Source of the DNA: a virus
IMG/VR virus record: IMGVR_UViG_3300042863_002514
Span: 55,064 to 119,063 of that record
Length of the DNA: 64,000 bases
Reading direction: 5' to 3' (one strand)
Shown here: piece after piece, positions 2,761-38,445 of the stretch
Numbering within the stretch: the stretch's first letter is position 1
Layout of the letters: every line of letters starts with the position of its first letter
Notes under the pieces: generated by a model
Seen by the model: the letters and a program-made list of their open reading frames with translations, nothing else
Told to the model about the DNA's origin: nothing
Databases searched by the model: none
Translations under genes and position numbers: made by a program

Positions 2761-5700
2761 TTATTGCCAAGGTTTCCCAAAATTCAAAACCCATGTCCTA
2801 GAGAACCTGCTTGCTGTCACTGAGGCCCTTTGATTGAACACAGTGCTATAATAATCAAAAATAGTCTTGTTTTCATCAAATATTACCTGGCTAAAGGGAA
2901 TATTAGTGTTGTTCACAAAGTCAAACTCAGTTGTAAACTCGTCAAAATAAGTTGTATTGTTATCAAACACTGTCTCGCTAGCGGGTTCATACTCTACCAA
3001 GGCTGTTTGGCCAACATCCCAAGTCATAGTATCCTCATCAAAAGTTGTAGATCCAGTCCAAACAATGCCTTGAACAGTCAACTCCACTTGTTTGACTTCA
3101 ATCAAGTTACCATCGTAAGGATTTACAGGAAAAGGATTGTTTTTAAACCACTCTGCTCCAGAATCTGAGACTTCCGCCAACGGAACTGATAATACAAAAT
3201 TGTCTGCCCAAACTTCTTGCCAAGAAGGCAGTAATTCTGTTCCTGAAAAATCAATAAATGCTCCTGACTGATATCCTTGCCCAGGGCTCAATATAGAGAC
3301 TGTTGATACCCCTAAATCAAATAATACTGCAAAGTTTTTTGTACCATTGAAAAATGTAATGTTCCCTTTGGGAAAATGCGAAAAAAGTCCAGGAACTGTT
3401 ACTTGAATACTGGTTACTACACCTATGTTGTTTACGCTGACTATTTTTATTTTGCCAAATTGTTGATTTACTGCTGAGCCGACTTTCACTTCAAACTCTT
3501 GGTCAGCTAAGAATCCAGGTGTTGAGCTTTCAATAGTACCGCTCTGCAAACCTAGATATCCCACTACTTGTGCGCCCGAGCCTTGTCCAATAACAGAGAT
3601 TTTGGGTTGACTATAATATCCTGTTCCAGAGGAATTTACTGCTATGTTTGTCAATGCACCACTGCTCAAGTTCACTGATGCAGTTGCTTGTGCCCCAGAG
3701 CCTTTGGCGTTGGAAAACCCAAACAATCTTTCTGTTGTTTGCCGGATATTATAGACACTGGCTGGAAAAGCTTGATTAGGACCTTGTTTGTTTTGTTTGA
3801 GCCAAACAACTTGATTATCTATTATGGGAATGGCTGTTCCTGAAGGTCCTAGCCCACCTGCTGACCAACCAGTGGTTTGTGCAGTCAAAAGTAGGTCTTG
3901 ATTTACAATTGTTTGTTGTGTTTGATATCTGTGCTGGGGATACCAAGGCAATGGTAACAAACGGCTAGTAGCGATGTTAGGGAAGGCAACCAGCTGCCAA
4001 ACTACTGATCCATCAGCACCAGGTGTGGTGGGTTCAGGAAAATCTCCACTCTTTCCACTAACACTAGCTACAAGTTGCAGTCCGGTGCTAGTGCTTACTC
4101 TTTCATTACTATGATAAAATGAAAAGGGAGTCCAAGTCCTATTACTGTTCGCATCTTTTACAGCAACAAATAATGTTTGATACGGCAGTTGATTGCCTTC
4201 ACTTACATAAACGTTGCCATAACCCAGCTTAAACTCTGTCAAATAATTGCTAATAGCATCTCTAACAGTTGAAACATTTTGATAATTTAAACCATTTATA
4301 ATAGAGACTGCTGGACTGTCATTTCGACTCCAATTTTTATCAGCCTCTCTAAACAGATATTCAGGTGGCATTAGGCTGGTGCTGTTATTGATAATAAAGT
4401 CCAGTTTGTTTGTGCCTGTTATGGGAATCTGTATGCTCATATAATGTTCAAGATTCTGACTTTGGACTGTTAGACGGAACCATTGAATAGCTACATCTAC
4501 ACCGTCTCCAGCACTTACTTCAAAATAATATGTTTTGGAAACAGCATGATACTCCACAAAACCACTTAGCATGCCGGTTTCACTCACTACTATAGTGTAG
4601 GGAGGTATATTGCCACCCCTGAGACCGTATTGTATGCTAGCTCCAGGCCTAGTTGTAATGGCTTGAAATTGTATGCTACTGAATTCACCGTCATTTACGG
4701 AGCCCAAATCATTTGGTGTTATCCAAGTGATTTGTTTGGCATCTTGTGCCACTGTAACAAAAAAGTTTTGCGGTATTGCATTTGTACCATCACTTGCAAT
4801 CACTGTAAACGAATACACAGTGGTAATAGAGACATTAGGCGCCTGCCCCCAGAGCTCTCCAAGAATGCTGAGATTTAACCAAGGAGGCAGGTTTACGCTA
4901 GAGAAAGCTACGCTCTGCAAGTCTGGTTCAAATACTATCAAAGGAAAATTAAAATTAGTGCCAGGCGCAATAGTGCCTAAGCTTCCTGAGGGAGTAATCC
5001 AAATAGGCGCATGTGGGGGACTTATCAACCCTACTGAAAACACCTGAGAAATGGTTTTAGTGTTGGTTGATGCAATAATTGTGAAATCAAGCGAGTCAAT
5101 TGTGCCAGGTGTTACTTGGTCCCACACAGCAGCTTGGGCAATGTATTGCCAGGCAGTAGGGTATCCGTCAGGAATATATCCTCCTGTGCCTGTGGGACCA
5201 CCAGCAGGTGCACTGAACCCACTTGCCAAACACACGTAGAGTTTTCCAGTGTCATTTGACACAATTTGGTTTATTACATAATAAGTATTGGGCTGCCAAG
5301 GCGGGTCAATGCTGTCTACTATATTCAGTCCAGAAACATAAGGACCATTGGCTATCCCGCTCTTTCCAGGCACTGTACACTTATACAAATAGCCATTGTT
5401 AAAAACATAATCAATTATTGAATACAACGAAGTGGGTTTCCAAGACAGGTCAACAGTGACCAAGCCTGTTTGCGCTTCAATAGAAACTCCTTGGCTCCAG
5501 GTAATAACAGGAGGAAAGCTGTAGGTAATGGATTTCAAAGGTGTATTTTGGGCAGCCACTACGAATTCTTGTGGTTCAGATTGATAATAGTAGCCCAAAA
5601 CACTTGTATTGGTGGTCTGCCATTCCAGAATGTCAACACTATTTGTAGCAGTTATGTAAAATGTGCGATCAGTTGAAAATGTGCCGTTGTTTAGTCGGAG

Positions 5701-15789: not shown

Positions 15790-15860
15790 CAAAGAAAAGT
15801 TCAAACTTGTGTGAAACCTAGGTCATTATTTTGTTTGAAAACCTTTTTGTAAACTTTTGG

Positions 15861-15931
15861 TGGCACCAGTGAGATTTGAACTCACACCACTGGATTTAGA
15901 GTCCAGCTGACTACCTTTGTCTTATGGGGCC
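15861..15931 (-). tRNA. tRNA with CUA anticodon (amber suppressor)
   Basis: 71 nt. Acceptor GGCCCCA/TGGTGCC has one C-U mismatch; the D stem has 3 bp; the anticodon arm is CTGGA-CTCTAAA-TCCAG, anticodon CUA; the T arm is GTGAG-TTCAAAT-CTCAC; discriminator A. It has its own sigma70-type promoter 12 nt upstream. The amino acid is not obvious. It should read UAG. Confidence 0.75.
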
Positions 15932-17673: not shown

Positions 17674-17747
17674 TGGACACACCAGGGCTCGAACCTGGAA
17701 CAAGACCGTTATGAGCGGCCGACTCTAACCAATTGAGCTATGCGTCC
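17674..17747 (-). tRNA. tRNA with CAU anticodon (Ile2 likely)
   Basis: 74 nt, no encoded CCA beyond the discriminator A. Acceptor GGACGCA/TGTGTCC; anticodon arm GGCCG-CTCATAA-CGGTC. CAU serves Met, or Ile when C34 is lysidine. The adjacent tilS gene favours Ile2 (AUA codons). Confidence 0.9.
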
Positions 17748-17762
17748 TTATCAACTGCTCAT

Positions 17763-17791
17763 ATAATATGCGCTAAATCGCAGTCTGTCAA
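17763..17791 (-). promoter_or_regulatory. sigma70-type promoter of tRNA(CAU)
   Basis: TTGACA, 17-nt spacer, TATTAT on the minus strand; the -35 box overlaps the tilS stop region. Confidence 0.8.
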
Positions 17792-18396
17792 CTATTTTCT
17801 GTTTGCATGCTTTGAAGAACCAGCCGCTTGACCACCTTCCTCAAGCCTGGATTGACCTTGAGTGCCTCCGGTACAATCTTATGACGAATGTGATTCCGCA
17901 TATACTTCAAATCTTTATTGCTCTCATCCTCAACCCAAGGCACCTCATGTCTCACACACCAACTTTCAAACACACTCTTGGGTGTGGTGAGAAAGGGTCG
18001 CACCACATTGTTCCGCCACATGGGAATGGTGTGTGTTTTCCCATGCAAACAGTTGAAGAGATAGGTCTCCACACAATCATCTAGATGATGCCCTGTTACC
18101 ACAACTCCTTCGATGCTGTGCAAAAACTCATATCGACTGTTGCGCCAATGTTCTTCCATTGAAACCCCTTTGGGGCACGCATCAACCAAAAAATCCACTC
18201 GCATGGGAATGGAGTTCTCATAACAGTATGTGCTGAGAAAGCTCAACGCTTTTGAACTTGTTTCGGTGTCATGATGAAAAAAACACACAGTGACGTTGTG
18301 CCGGAGGCGCAAAAAATCCAGCACCGCCATGCTGTCTACACCACCGCTACACGCTACCCCCAGTTCTCGAGGCAACTTGGCCAGCAACTTGAACAC
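17788..18396 (-). CDS. tilS: tRNA(Ile)-lysidine synthetase, short form
   Basis: 202 residues, roughly the catalytic N-terminal domain only (cellular TilS is longer). PP-loop SGGVDSMAVLDFL at residues ~17-29, then NSRYEFL, GHHLDDCVETYLF, RPFLTTPKS, EDESNKDLKYMRNHIRHKIVPE and NPGLRK, the full family order. It attaches lysine to C34 of tRNA(Ile2) so that CAU reads AUA. The gene starts with GTG directly after the TAG of the ATP-grasp gene, in the same frame, with GGAG 8 nt upstream. A tRNA(CAU) follows immediately. Confidence 0.92.
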   Translation of the reverse strand: MFKLLAKLPRELGVACSGGVDSMAVLDFLRLRHNVTVCFFHHDTETSSKALSFLSTYCYENSIPMRVDFLVDACPKGVSMEEHWRNSRYEFLHSIEGVVVTGHHLDDCVETYLFNCLHGKTHTIPMWRNNVVRPFLTTPKSVFESWCVRHEVPWVEDESNKDLKYMRNHIRHKIVPEALKVNPGLRKVVKRLVLQSMQTENS

Positions 18397-22051: not shown

Positions 22052-22843
22052 CTAGCCCACAGCCCTCTCTAGGGCCCGTATCCCTTCTAACCCACCGGCA
22101 GAGATTCCTAAATCACTTGTACGTGAAGTTTCAAACTCATGTGGATTGATGCGAATCAAGTTAGTGGTGCGTTCTTGACCAAAGATCCTAATGCTGGGGA
22201 TTCCAGTTCCTGCACCAATTTCAATACCCAAAACCTCCATCTTTGATGCTGCCCAATTCCGAAAATTTTCTTGACCTTGATCAATTTGTGTCCAAACAAT
22301 CCCTGGGTCGTTGAACATCAGCACATTTGGTCGAGCATTCTTGTTGCAGTAGGGGCATTTGGGGATTTCCTGTTCTGAGGTGAGCAGGGAAGAAAATTTT
22401 GGCATAGAGGGTAAGTTTCGGCAACAGGGTTGAGTGCACTGAATTTTTCGCAGATTGCCATGTATCTCATAGAGATATTGTGGGTCATAACCAGCTTTCA
22501 AAAAATGGCCATCAACATTACTGGTTACTACAAAACTTTTTTTGTTGTGTGATTGTAGGAGATCCAGGAGGATCTTGTAACCCTCATGTGGGACAGTGTC
22601 TTGATATTTAATCATGCGGCCAACGTAAAAGTTCCAAGCCTCAAGGGGATTGGTGTCAAAACTTTTGGCTGTAGCTTTCTTGAGAAAGTTTTCTTTGGCC
22701 TCGGTCCACAAGCCTGTGGCGCCTCGAAAATCTGGCAAGCCACTGTCTACACTCATGCCGGCACCAGCCAAGATCACAATTCCTTCGGCTTGATGCCATA
22801 ATTCTTTTATGCGTTGGGTTTGATCGGGGGTGAGTGGTTGCAT
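22052..22843 (-). CDS. Sir2-family NAD-dependent deacylase
   Basis: 263 residues from MQPLTPDQTQ; an earlier start would run into the tRNA. Sirtuin motifs in order: ILAGAGMSVDSGLPDFRG (residues ~24-41), VTSNVDGHFLKAG, catalytic His in YEIHGNL, a CTQPCC/CPYC zinc pair, VLMFNDPGI, and GIEIGAGTGIPSIR. It would use NAD+ to deacylate proteins, or possibly act as an NADase. It sits after a tRNA-Arg and belongs with the NAD+ genes of this phage. Confidence 0.88.
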   Translation of the reverse strand: MQPLTPDQTQRIKELWHQAEGIVILAGAGMSVDSGLPDFRGATGLWTEAKENFLKKATAKSFDTNPLEAWNFYVGRMIKYQDTVPHEGYKILLDLLQSHNKKSFVVTSNVDGHFLKAGYDPQYLYEIHGNLRKIQCTQPCCRNLPSMPKFSSLLTSEQEIPKCPYCNKNARPNVLMFNDPGIVWTQIDQGQENFRNWAASKMEVLGIEIGAGTGIPSIRIFGQERTTNLIRINPHEFETSRTSDLGISAGGLEGIRALERAVG

Positions 22844-22875
22844 TAGGTTGGGTTCTTTTATAAGAGTGTAGTAAG

Positions 22876-22999
22876 TGGCGGACCCGGAGGGATTCGAACC
22901 CCCATCGAAGAGCTTAGGAGCGGTCCCCAAGGATTCGAACCTTGAATGCTACCTGCGGGACCGGAAGGCTCTTGCCTTATCCAATTAGACCACGGATCC
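22876..22999 (-). tRNA. tRNA-Arg(CCU) with 47-nt insertion in the anticodon loop
   Basis: 124 nt with encoded CCA. The outer tRNA is complete: acceptor GGATCCG/CGGGTCC, D stem GTCT/AGGC, anticodon stem AAGAGC/GCTCTT, T arm GGGGG-TTCGAAT-CCCTC. Removing 47 nt from the 54-nt loop (22914-22967) gives CTCCTAA, anticodon CCU. The insertion itself forms a 7-bp acceptor-like stem (22921-22927 with 22957-22963) and a perfect T arm CAAGG-TTCGAAT-CCTTG (22928-22944). Confidence 0.75.
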
Positions 23000-23014
23000 T
23001 TAACTTGTAGTTTT

Positions 23015-23042
23015 ACTATATTGATCTTTTCTGCAACGTCAA
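23015..23042 (-). promoter_or_regulatory. sigma70-type promoter of tRNA-Arg
   Basis: TTGACG, 16-nt spacer, TATAGT on the minus strand, 16 nt before the tRNA. Confidence 0.75.
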
Positions 23043-23129
23043 CTACGAATGTTTGTAGTAATTTTAAGTTTAACACAATCAAAAACAAACACGATAGTAT
23101 GCGTCTCAAAAACTGTTAGTAAGTTTAAA

Positions 23130-31622: not shown

Positions 31623-31652
31623 CTATTATTACACAGTTTCCGTTTGTGTCAA
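31623..31652 (-). promoter_or_regulatory. possible sigma70-type promoter toward the endolysin
   Basis: TTGACA starts at the discriminator base of the tRNA-Arg; TAATAG lies 18 nt further. Reads toward the SleB-type gene. Confidence 0.4.
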
Positions 31653-31725
31653 CGTCCTGGCGAGATTCAAACTCGCAACCTTTTGACTAGGATTCAAATG
31701 CTCTATTCAGTTGAGCTACAGGACG
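31652..31725 (-). tRNA. tRNA-Arg(CCU), uninterrupted
   Basis: 74 nt. Acceptor CGTCCTG/CAGGACG, anticodon arm TTTGA-ATCCTAG-TCAAA (CCU), T arm GCGAG-TTTGAAT-CTCGC. Same anticodon as the interrupted tRNA-Arg at 22.9 kb. Confidence 0.85.
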
Positions 31726-33901: not shown

Positions 33902-34064
33902 TGGTGCCGGATGTCAGTTTCGAACTGACCACCTATTGATTACCATTTGGCGTACTGGCTTTAGGCCAGTGTTGCCCACAAACAACTGGTAAATTTATTC
34001 ACCAGTTGGTGGCATTATCCCGCCACGGAAAAATCAATTGCTCTACCAAATGAGCTAATCCGGC
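33902..34064 (-). tRNA. tRNA-Lys(UUU)-like with 87-nt insertion in the anticodon loop
   Basis: 163 nt with CCA. Acceptor GCCGGAT/ATCCGGC is perfect; D arm GCTC/GAGC; anticodon stem ATTGA/TCAAT; T arm GTCAG-TTCGAAA-CTGAC. The 94-nt loop (33940-34033) starts TTTTT and ends AA; removing 87 nt leaves TTTTTAA, anticodon UUU. The insertion has an outer TGGCG/CGCCA stem, an 11-bp hairpin and a 5-bp/7-nt arm ACTGG-CCTAAAG-CCAGT. An uninterrupted tRNA-Lys(UUU) is at 38454. Confidence 0.7.
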
Positions 34065-37991: not shown

Positions 37992-38097
37992 CGCCATCGC
38001 CGGATGCCACTTCCGGATTTCTTCACCAGCTAGGTGATTGCTGCCGGCTAGTTACCATTCTCATGGTGTGTTGGGAGGCTGTTCCAACCTCGATGGC
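37992..38097 (-). other. tRNA-like element with enlarged centre
   Basis: Perfect acceptor GCCATCG/CGATGGC and T arm CCGGA-AGTGGCA-TCCGG, but 106 nt long. Between them lie a GTTGG/CCAAC arm and a CACCA/TGGTG stem enclosing 35 nt. The anticodon cannot be assigned. Confidence 0.45.
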
Positions 38098-38119
38098 AAT
38101 TGTTGGTTGAGAGAATAGT

Positions 38120-38193
38120 TGGCAGGCCACCCAGGTACCGCCCCCGGCACTTTGAGGTTGGAGCTCAACGTGATACTAATTCACCAGCGACCT
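38120..38193 (-). tRNA. tRNA-Trp(CCA)
   Basis: 74 nt with CCA and G73. Acceptor AGGTCGC/GTGGCCT; anticodon arm TTGAG-CTCCAAC-CTCAA; T arm CCGGG-GGCGGTA-CCTGG. Confidence 0.82.
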
Positions 38194-38198
38194 ACAAT

Positions 38199-38273
38199 TG
38201 GTGGAGCATATCGGTATCGCGCCGATCAGGCTAGGATCTTGCAAAGATCCTCCGGGTACCTTGCCCATGCCCC
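38199..38273 (-). tRNA. tRNA-Ala(UGC), copy 1
   Basis: 75 nt with CCA. Acceptor GGGGCAT/ATGCTCC; anticodon arm GGATC-TTTGCAA-GATCC; T arm ATCGG-CGCGATA-CCGAT. Confidence 0.85.
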
Positions 38274-38288
38274 ATTATATTCTTAACT

Positions 38289-38363
38289 TGGTGCGCACCG
38301 CAGGTACTGCCCCTGCCTCTCCACCCTTATCAAGGGTGTGCTTCCCTTCTCAGCCAGATGCGC
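38289..38363 (-). tRNA. tRNA-Ile(GAU)
   Basis: 75 nt with CCA. Acceptor GCGCATC/GGTGCGC; anticodon arm CACCC-TTGATAA-GGGTG; T arm GCAGG-GGCAGTA-CCTGC. Confidence 0.85.
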
Positions 38364-38369
38364 AAAATT

Positions 38370-38445
38370 TGGAGGACCGTCTGGGATTTGAACCCAGGAC
38401 TTCCAACTTAAGAGGATGGCACTCTTACCACTGAGTTAACGGTCC
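38370..38445 (-). tRNA. tRNA-Lys(CUU)
   Basis: 76 nt with CCA, U73. Anticodon arm CCATC-CTCTTAA-GTTGG with one U-U mismatch. Confidence 0.82.

Follow-up and report, generated by a model that had tools for sequence, protein, structure and literature searches.

A tRNA-like insert in the anticodon loop of a phage tRNA-Arg gene, read from sequence as a minimal member of a recurrent class of putative introns

A phage tRNA gene that carries a miniature tRNA-like fold inside its anticodon loop raises the question of whether the insert is removed from the transcript, and by which enzymes, or whether the gene is dead or serves another role. The window analyzed here is a stretch of 64,000 nt, positions 55064-119063 of a 119,063-bp IMG/VR virus record; three further records of 148-310 kb carry the same insert. 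Ten proteins were compared with PHROG, and the families matched include those of tail fibre, sigma factor and nicotinamide phosphoribosyl transferase; the sigma-factor homolog makes a bacterial host likely. Pfam matches in nearby genes include SIR2, a methyltransferase and a PP-loop (TilS-like) protein; a protein of this last type (17674-18396, minus strand) adjoins a tRNA with anticodon CAU. Megablast of window positions 20000-44000 brought up no close annotated relative; it returned 9 records matching at tRNA-Gly or tRNA-Ala only. For other loci of this study the search gave no record (L344), one (L318) or three (L328), with all matches below 100 bases.

An earlier note, made from the letters of the window, had described a complete outer tRNA with CCA and a 54-nt anticodon loop; all of these are present, located on the minus strand (Table 1). 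Rfam RF00005 scores the outer tRNA at 43.8 bits (cut-off 29) and places the insert in the anticodon loop, and the gene was missed by ARAGORN in the window scan. The outer acceptor is GGATCCG/CGGGTCC, a D arm is present, and the anticodon stem AGAGC/GCTCT has 5 bp, followed by a variable loop of 5 nt, a T arm, G73 and a CCA encoded in the gene. In the register derived below, the 5' exon ends in loop CTTC (nt 32-35), and after its loop TAA the 3' exon runs through the 3' strand of the anticodon stem, variable loop, T arm and 3' acceptor strand to GCCA. The description of the 47-nt insert also held: an acceptor-like stem of 7 bp and, beyond a linker of 12 nt, a perfect T arm of 5 bp whose loop is TTCGAAT.

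Table 1. Positions in the window of the interrupted tRNA gene, its parts and the uninterrupted tRNA genes compared with it
Feature	Position	Strand	Remark or basis
Interrupted tRNA gene, read as tRNA-Arg(UCU), CCA encoded	22876..22999	minus	Rfam RF00005, sequence, ARAGORN on joined exons
5' exon, 36 nt: acceptor 5' strand, D arm, anticodon stem 5' strand	22964..22999	minus	
tRNA-like putative intron, 47 nt, between nt 35 and 36	22917..22963	minus	
Inner acceptor 5' strand CGGTCCC	22957..22963	minus	RNase P cut predicted at its first base
Linker GCAGGTAGCATT, 12 nt, replaces D and anticodon arms	22945..22956	minus	
Inner T arm CAAGG-TTCGAAT-CCTTG	22928..22944	minus	5/5 pairs
Inner acceptor 3' strand GGGACCG	22921..22927	minus	pairs 7/7 with CGGTCCC
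Tail CTCC, 4 nt, at the N73-CCA place	22917..22920	minus	predicted 3' cut follows
3' exon, 41 nt	22876..22916	minus	begins with loop TAA (nt 36-38)
Uninterrupted tRNA with UAA anticodon, loop CTTAAAA	24039..24114	minus	L126 counterpart (3135-3262) has an insert
Uninterrupted tRNA-Leu(CAA), loop CTCAAAA	24233..24318	minus	L126 counterpart (2880-3027) has an insert with inner T arm
Separate uninterrupted tRNA-Arg(CCU)	31652..31725	minus	ARAGORN

The exact edges of the insert, and with them the identity of the tRNA, were read by comparison with a diverged relative, IMGVR_UViG_3300016665_000978 (L126), which has the same interrupted tRNA at 5166-5290 and also holds inserts in two tRNAs whose window counterparts are empty. 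The insert in the UAA tRNA of L126 has an inner T arm, and CTTA|AAA is the only split that restores the empty loop; 35|36 is the sole register turning the filled UAA loop of L126 into the window's own empty one. The same register also fits Leu(CAA) as CTCA|AAA and the Arg gene as CTTC|TAA. Because this comparison fixes the register at 35|36, the Arg gene is read as tRNA-Arg(UCU): the loop of 54 nt is 7 + 47, the joined loop is CTTCTAA, and ARAGORN calls tRNA-Arg(tct) on the exons joined at this point. ARAGORN missed two of the three interrupted genes of L126 and called the third one Leu. In the scans described below, the two Leu inserts of L126 were left uncounted; they fit only with a C-A mismatch allowed at the first inner pair.

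The joined exons used as a query, which itself contained UCU (a bias of one base), matched phage tRNA-Arg genes, and the anticodon is UCU in 4/4 uninterrupted phage homologs fetched. In G003, a more distant relative, the Arg(UCU) gene is uninterrupted and its loop reads CTTCTAA. The identity Arg(CCU), assigned in the earlier note, would need a cut at 33|34 or earlier and was rejected, since register and homologs give UCU. That note had also pointed to an uninterrupted tRNA-Arg(CCU) at 31652 and taken the interrupted copy to be free for another role. The uninterrupted copy is indeed called, but the interrupted gene is not itself CCU; no other tRNA-Arg(UCU) is among the ARAGORN calls in the window, so the interrupted gene is not redundant and the suggestion of a free copy is not supported. 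From sequence, the gene is better read as Arg(UCU) than as a redundant Arg(CCU).

The fold, whose retention in relatives had been proposed as a check, is kept in L126, where the neighboring protein is 82% identical. Between the window and L126 each outer helix is altered in sequence with pairing retained; the inserts agree in 39 of 49 aligned columns and the exons in 50 of 81, that is, the diverged relative keeps the putative intron better than the exons. L143 (54%) and L144 (38%), which hold relatives of the neighboring 266-aa protein, showed no such intron in the scan.

Other unusual tRNA genes were seen in the window. A second interrupted tRNA with CCA lies at 33902-34064 (minus strand), with a 94-nt anticodon loop, uncalled by ARAGORN or by Rfam at gathering scores. 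It has a homolog in L281 with the common motif TTCCGTRGCGGG, and a cut at 33|34 gives Thr(GGU) in both; its insert does not fit the tRNA-core rule described below and may represent another type of small intron. A scan for this motif with the window's spacing returned three near-identical records of the window phage only. At 38120-38420 (minus strand) there are tandem tRNA-like genes with 7-nt T loops lacking TTCRA (GGCAGTA, CGCGATA, CGGTACC); they are uncalled by ARAGORN, and by eye their loops can be read as Ile(GAU), Ala-like(UGC) and Trp(CCA). The insert of L280 shows the same unusual T loop GGCAGTA. A skipping-rope RNA (Rfam, 44.5 bits) lies within the tRNA cluster at 37992-38098 (minus strand), and a tRNA with anticodon CUA, a possible amber suppressor, is at 15858-15931 (minus strand).

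Folded alone, the 47-mer takes the acceptor plus T-arm shape, and its linker forms an additional mini-hairpin of 2 bp. When the 54-nt loop was dinucleotide-shuffled 200,000 times, 3 shuffles gave a 7/7 plus 5/5 fold that had a T-like loop, and none of these left a 7-nt residual; a chance fold was rejected on these shuffles and the reversed-sequence control given below. The folding energy of the whole transcript is not unusual (z = -0.66), and its minimum-energy fold at -45.6 kcal/mol breaks the nested shape, which stands at -41.1 kcal/mol; the case therefore rests on comparison. An artefact of a single assembly was rejected: G000 and another three IMG/VR records carry the same insert, and L126 carries a diverged form.

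Bacterial tRNA genes can be interrupted in the anticodon loop by group I introns, which may also bear a homing endonuclease. The insert of the window differs from them in its length of 47 nt, its tRNA-like core and the lack of an Rfam group I match. There was no group I match anywhere in the window at gathering scores, and within the interval 22800-23100 Rfam gave neither an intron nor a ribozyme at E values up to 1. A group I or other Rfam intron was rejected on this result; the length is, as the earlier note had rightly judged, too short for group I.

To place the insert among other phage tRNAs, a custom cloverleaf scanner that finds tRNAs with long anticodon loops was run over 479 loci (4.25 Mb), taken from pattern scans of IMG/VR (for one scan, from among the matches listed) and one scan of genome contigs. 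An inner fold was scored as an acceptor with at least 6/7 pairs plus a T arm. The 479 loci gave 212 distinct long-loop candidates, and an inner acceptor and T arm were found in 59 rows, representing 57 distinct inserts; in the control with reversed sequences there were 0 inner folds among 15 candidates vs. 57 of 209 in the forward direction. When the inner fold and a 4-nt tail are subtracted from the loop, exactly 7 nt remain in 42 of the 59 rows (40 of 57 distinct inserts), although the cloverleaf scan did not require a residual of 7 nt. The ends of these putative introns therefore coincide with the ends of a mature tRNA. The window insert, scored through the identical locus L140, gives 54 - 47 = 7.

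The inner acceptor is fully paired (7/7) in 42/42 rule-obeying rows. Insertion points of the 40 distinct inserts are 34|35 (n = 21), 35|36 (n = 18) and 36|37 (n = 1). T33 is found in 40/40 joined loops, which are ordinary ones (CTTTTAA, CTTATAA, CTTCTAA, CTGTTAA and others). The tails are ACCA in 24, TCCA in 6, GCCA in 5, and CCCA, ACCC and ACTA in 1 each; the remaining two are TCCC in L126 and CTCC in the window, neither of which ends in CCA. With A/G/T-CCA in 35/40 distinct members, the NCCA tail is common and not defining.

These counts depend partly on how the loci were found. Patterns built on the outer tRNA only, which fixed T33 and nothing inside the insert, yielded 8/13 distinct inserts that obey the rule, plus L131, also matched by one of them. 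Since CCA, AA at 37-38 and the 3' offset were set by the CCA pattern, its 29/30 is an independent test of the 5' edge and T33 only. The 40 distinct inserts include near-copies and thus do not represent 40 independent origins; their loops occur in 61 of the loci, with the window phage and its overlapping loci counted several times. The rule is broken by 17 of the 57 distinct folds, among them forms with a 5' leader (L150 twice, L181), near misses (L178, L216, L421, L343) and spans of neighboring tRNAs in Aeromonas contigs. A relaxed test of 74 further CCA-pattern matches passed 12, of which 8 are copies of inserts already counted, 2 are apparent neighboring-tRNA spans (L358, L388) and 2 are new (L385, L386). 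Applied to genome contigs, the CCA pattern gave 79 stretches, one of which, a 12.7-kb MAG contig (L436), obeys the rule. By these comparisons, the window insert is a member of a widespread and sharply bounded class of putative phage introns. Both the membership in this large family and the coincidence of the edges with mature tRNA ends were overlooked in the earlier note.

Rule-obeying inserts range from 44 to 115 nt; the tRNA-like frame recurs among the 40 distinct ones and both sequence and size vary, the inner folds spanning 44-nt minihelices to a complete tRNA. L185 has a complete tRNA with a GAA anticodon and CCA end inside tRNA-Arg(UCU), and L175 and L179 have full-length (77-nt) tRNA-like inserts with a CCA end. 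Mini forms with CCA include L179 (Lys), L227 (Asn), L205 and L310. A 5' leader precedes the tRNA-like part in the inserts of G004 (L150) and L181. In L329 and L352, the inner acceptor and D arm abut the 5' exon (CTTC|GTTTTAT.. and CTTC|GTTAAAT..), and are followed by a long ORF with in-frame TAG codons, the inner T arm, the acceptor, ACCA or TCCA, and the 3' exon. With TAG read as Q, the two ORFs match GIY-YIG (E 7e-10 and 1.2e-7). L329 was found by a scan that imposes the residual rule; L352 was found via its outer acceptor and read by eye, with one base pair of the outer anticodon stem mismatched. By these matches, a homing-type endonuclease occupies the place of the tRNA anticodon arm in both.

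Arrangements of other kinds were also noted. By eye, L260 (2351-2453) and L276 (2312-2418) are tRNA-Thr-like with loop inserts of 28 and 32 nt that form simple hairpins without a T arm. Apparently a second endonuclease-bearing arrangement occurs in L342 (1597-2210), L321 (599-1160), L351 (1453-2215) and L374 (minus strand), in the order tRNA 5' half, probable endonuclease ORF, complete tRNA ending in CCA, and 3' half with a matching acceptor. The putative splice edges of these four could not be fixed, and Pfam HNH support was obtained for L321 only, with scores short of the curated cut-offs. In seven loci (L041, L043, L055, L086, L363, L370, L394) the 3' half of a different tRNA begins directly after a complete tRNA with CCA, and the upstream ranges searched contained no 5' half; these are possibly remnants or split tRNAs.

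The earlier note had allowed that the tRNA-like minihelix might be a spliced element with its own recognition fold, and by sequence it reads best as a removable element. RNase P and the tRNA 3'-end endonuclease leave a 3'-OH and a 5'-phosphate. We propose that the insert folds in the precursor as a tRNA-like minihelix of acceptor and T arm. Because the edges fall at mature tRNA ends, RNase P is the candidate for the 5' edge and a 3'-end endonuclease for the 3' edge. Host RNase P would cut at the first base of the inner acceptor, releasing a 5' exon with a 3'-OH, and an RNase Z-type endonuclease would cut four bases beyond the inner acceptor stem, the position of the CCA end in a mature tRNA, leaving a 5'-phosphate on the 3' exon. 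With such ends, an ATP-dependent ligase could join the halves without healing; a phage enzyme of the Rnl1 type would seal them in the anticodon loop to give tRNA-Arg(UCU). The RNase Z of T. maritima cuts directly past CCA, and that of E. coli is able to act on CA, CU, CCU or CCA ends (excerpts of PMC7479834). T4 Rnl1 rejoins tRNA halves cleaved in the anticodon loop (excerpts of PMC3400036). The mini form of the window has no endonuclease and would be the minimal version of a mobile intron; in the fuller versions a homing endonuclease takes the position of the anticodon arm. Excision, the enzymes responsible and mobility are what we infer from sequence, and we lean, with modest confidence, towards this reading of a tRNA-cored intron excised by RNase P and an RNase Z-type enzyme, ligated by an Rnl1-type enzyme and representing a mobile intron in its minimal state.

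The 309,756-bp record of the window phage encodes a PF09511 (Rnl1-type) ligase, at G001 210664-211245 (E 2.3e-27), and a second ligase matching PF09414; it gave no match to RtcB. Ligase genes were compared in preset records of at least 100 kb, 16 intron-bearing and 24 controls; the records are fragmentary and not independent in every case. PF09414 at E<=0.001 occurred in 14/16 intron-bearing records vs. 10/24 controls (Fisher p = 0.007), and at curated cut-offs in 11/16 vs. 9/24 (p = 0.105); PF09511 was found in 7/16 vs. 4/24 (p = 0.08) and RtcB in 0/16 vs. 4/24 (p = 0.14). Two controls proved to be intron-bearing after all, L345 (a copy of the insert of L343) and L386 (from the relaxed scan), and moving them changes the PF09414 counts to 16/18 vs. 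8/22 (p = 0.001). Another control, L197, has a long-loop candidate without an inner fold. The ligase association is supportive of the splicing route and not decisive.

The same ligase data bear on an unlikely but serious alternative, that the intron is excised but cut by an anticodon-loop endonuclease from the phage or the host, and that the ends are healed or joined by RtcB-type ligation, the fold being a recognition or spacing device. G004 (L016) is consistent with this, having leader-type folds with residuals of 36 and 39, an RtcB match and no PF09414 or PF09511 match, as are the hairpin-only inserts without a T arm in L260 and L276. Against it, RtcB is absent from all 16 intron-bearing records compared, and edges at mature tRNA ends with NCCA in 35/40 would go unexplained, CCA being imposed for the CCA-pattern set. 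It is quite improbable that a tRNA-derived insertion merely disrupts the gene and that the tRNA is dead or being lost: the phage does have another Arg tRNA (CCU), but the outer helices of L126 are all paired despite extensive change and its insert is better kept than its exons, the exact 7-nt residual recurs in 40/57 distinct inserts, and the joined loops resemble normal anticodon loops. Slightly less credible than a dead gene is that the nested RNA stays unspliced and serves some other purpose, such as that of a decoy for tRNA-binding enzymes or for anticodon nucleases, which phages do encounter (excerpts of PMC3400036); the inner minihelix is stable, but a decoy would have no need for exactly 7 residual bases and an ordinary loop across several anticodons. 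The least probable of all is a self-splicing RNA of unknown type: L126 and the window have most of the insert sequence in common, but the Rfam search of the interval found no intron or ribozyme, and what the 40 distinct inserts have in common is the tRNA-like frame, their sequence and size (44-115 nt) being variable.

The closest described case that we recognized is that of the Lak megaphages, in which tRNA introns were reported, one in tRNA-Thr(TGT) possibly encoding a tRNA (Devoto et al., 2019; PMC6784885, in excerpts). They were termed enigmatic and highly conserved in sequence there, and are mentioned as known in a 2021 follow-up (PMC8346664, in excerpts). Like the Lak introns, the window insert interrupts a phage tRNA, and it has an inner tRNA-like fold as one of the Lak introns may have. 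The excerpted Lak account, with which ours is compared by description only, differs in giving no boundary rule, splicing route, endonuclease or spread beyond Lak. No further phage tRNA introns of the tRNA-like kind were recognized in open-license PMC literature, preprints excluded; excerpts of a crAss-phage review, consulted for tRNA introns, describe group I introns in protein genes (PMC10136315). The enzymatic tRNA introns of archaea and eukaryotes are likewise small, located in the anticodon loop and enzyme-removed (removal being only proposed here), but the edges of the phage class lie at 34|35 to 36|37 and follow the inner tRNA-like fold, and the sigma-factor homolog of the window phage points to a bacterial host. 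Repair by T4 Pnkp/Rnl1 also involves a phage ATP-dependent ligase sealing an anticodon-loop break (excerpts of PMC3400036), whereas the breaks proposed for the phage introns would come from tRNA end-processing enzymes and need no end healing. Whether these inserts make up an undescribed class of mobile phage introns, with a tRNA-like core, borrowed RNase P, tRNA 3'-end nuclease and phage ligase, room for a homing endonuclease and the window insert as its minimal member, we regard as evenly balanced.

If such inserts are indeed excised, phage tRNA repertoires can be undercounted: ARAGORN missed the window gene and two of the three in L126. If excision by the proposed route is true, tRNA end-processing enzymes and a phage ligase would carry out a splicing unlike that of ribozyme introns or of the tRNA splicing endonuclease, which would suggest a constitutive use of phage RNA ligases besides the repair of anticodon breaks. 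It would also offer a possible explanation for the 'enigmatic' tRNA introns of the Lak phages.
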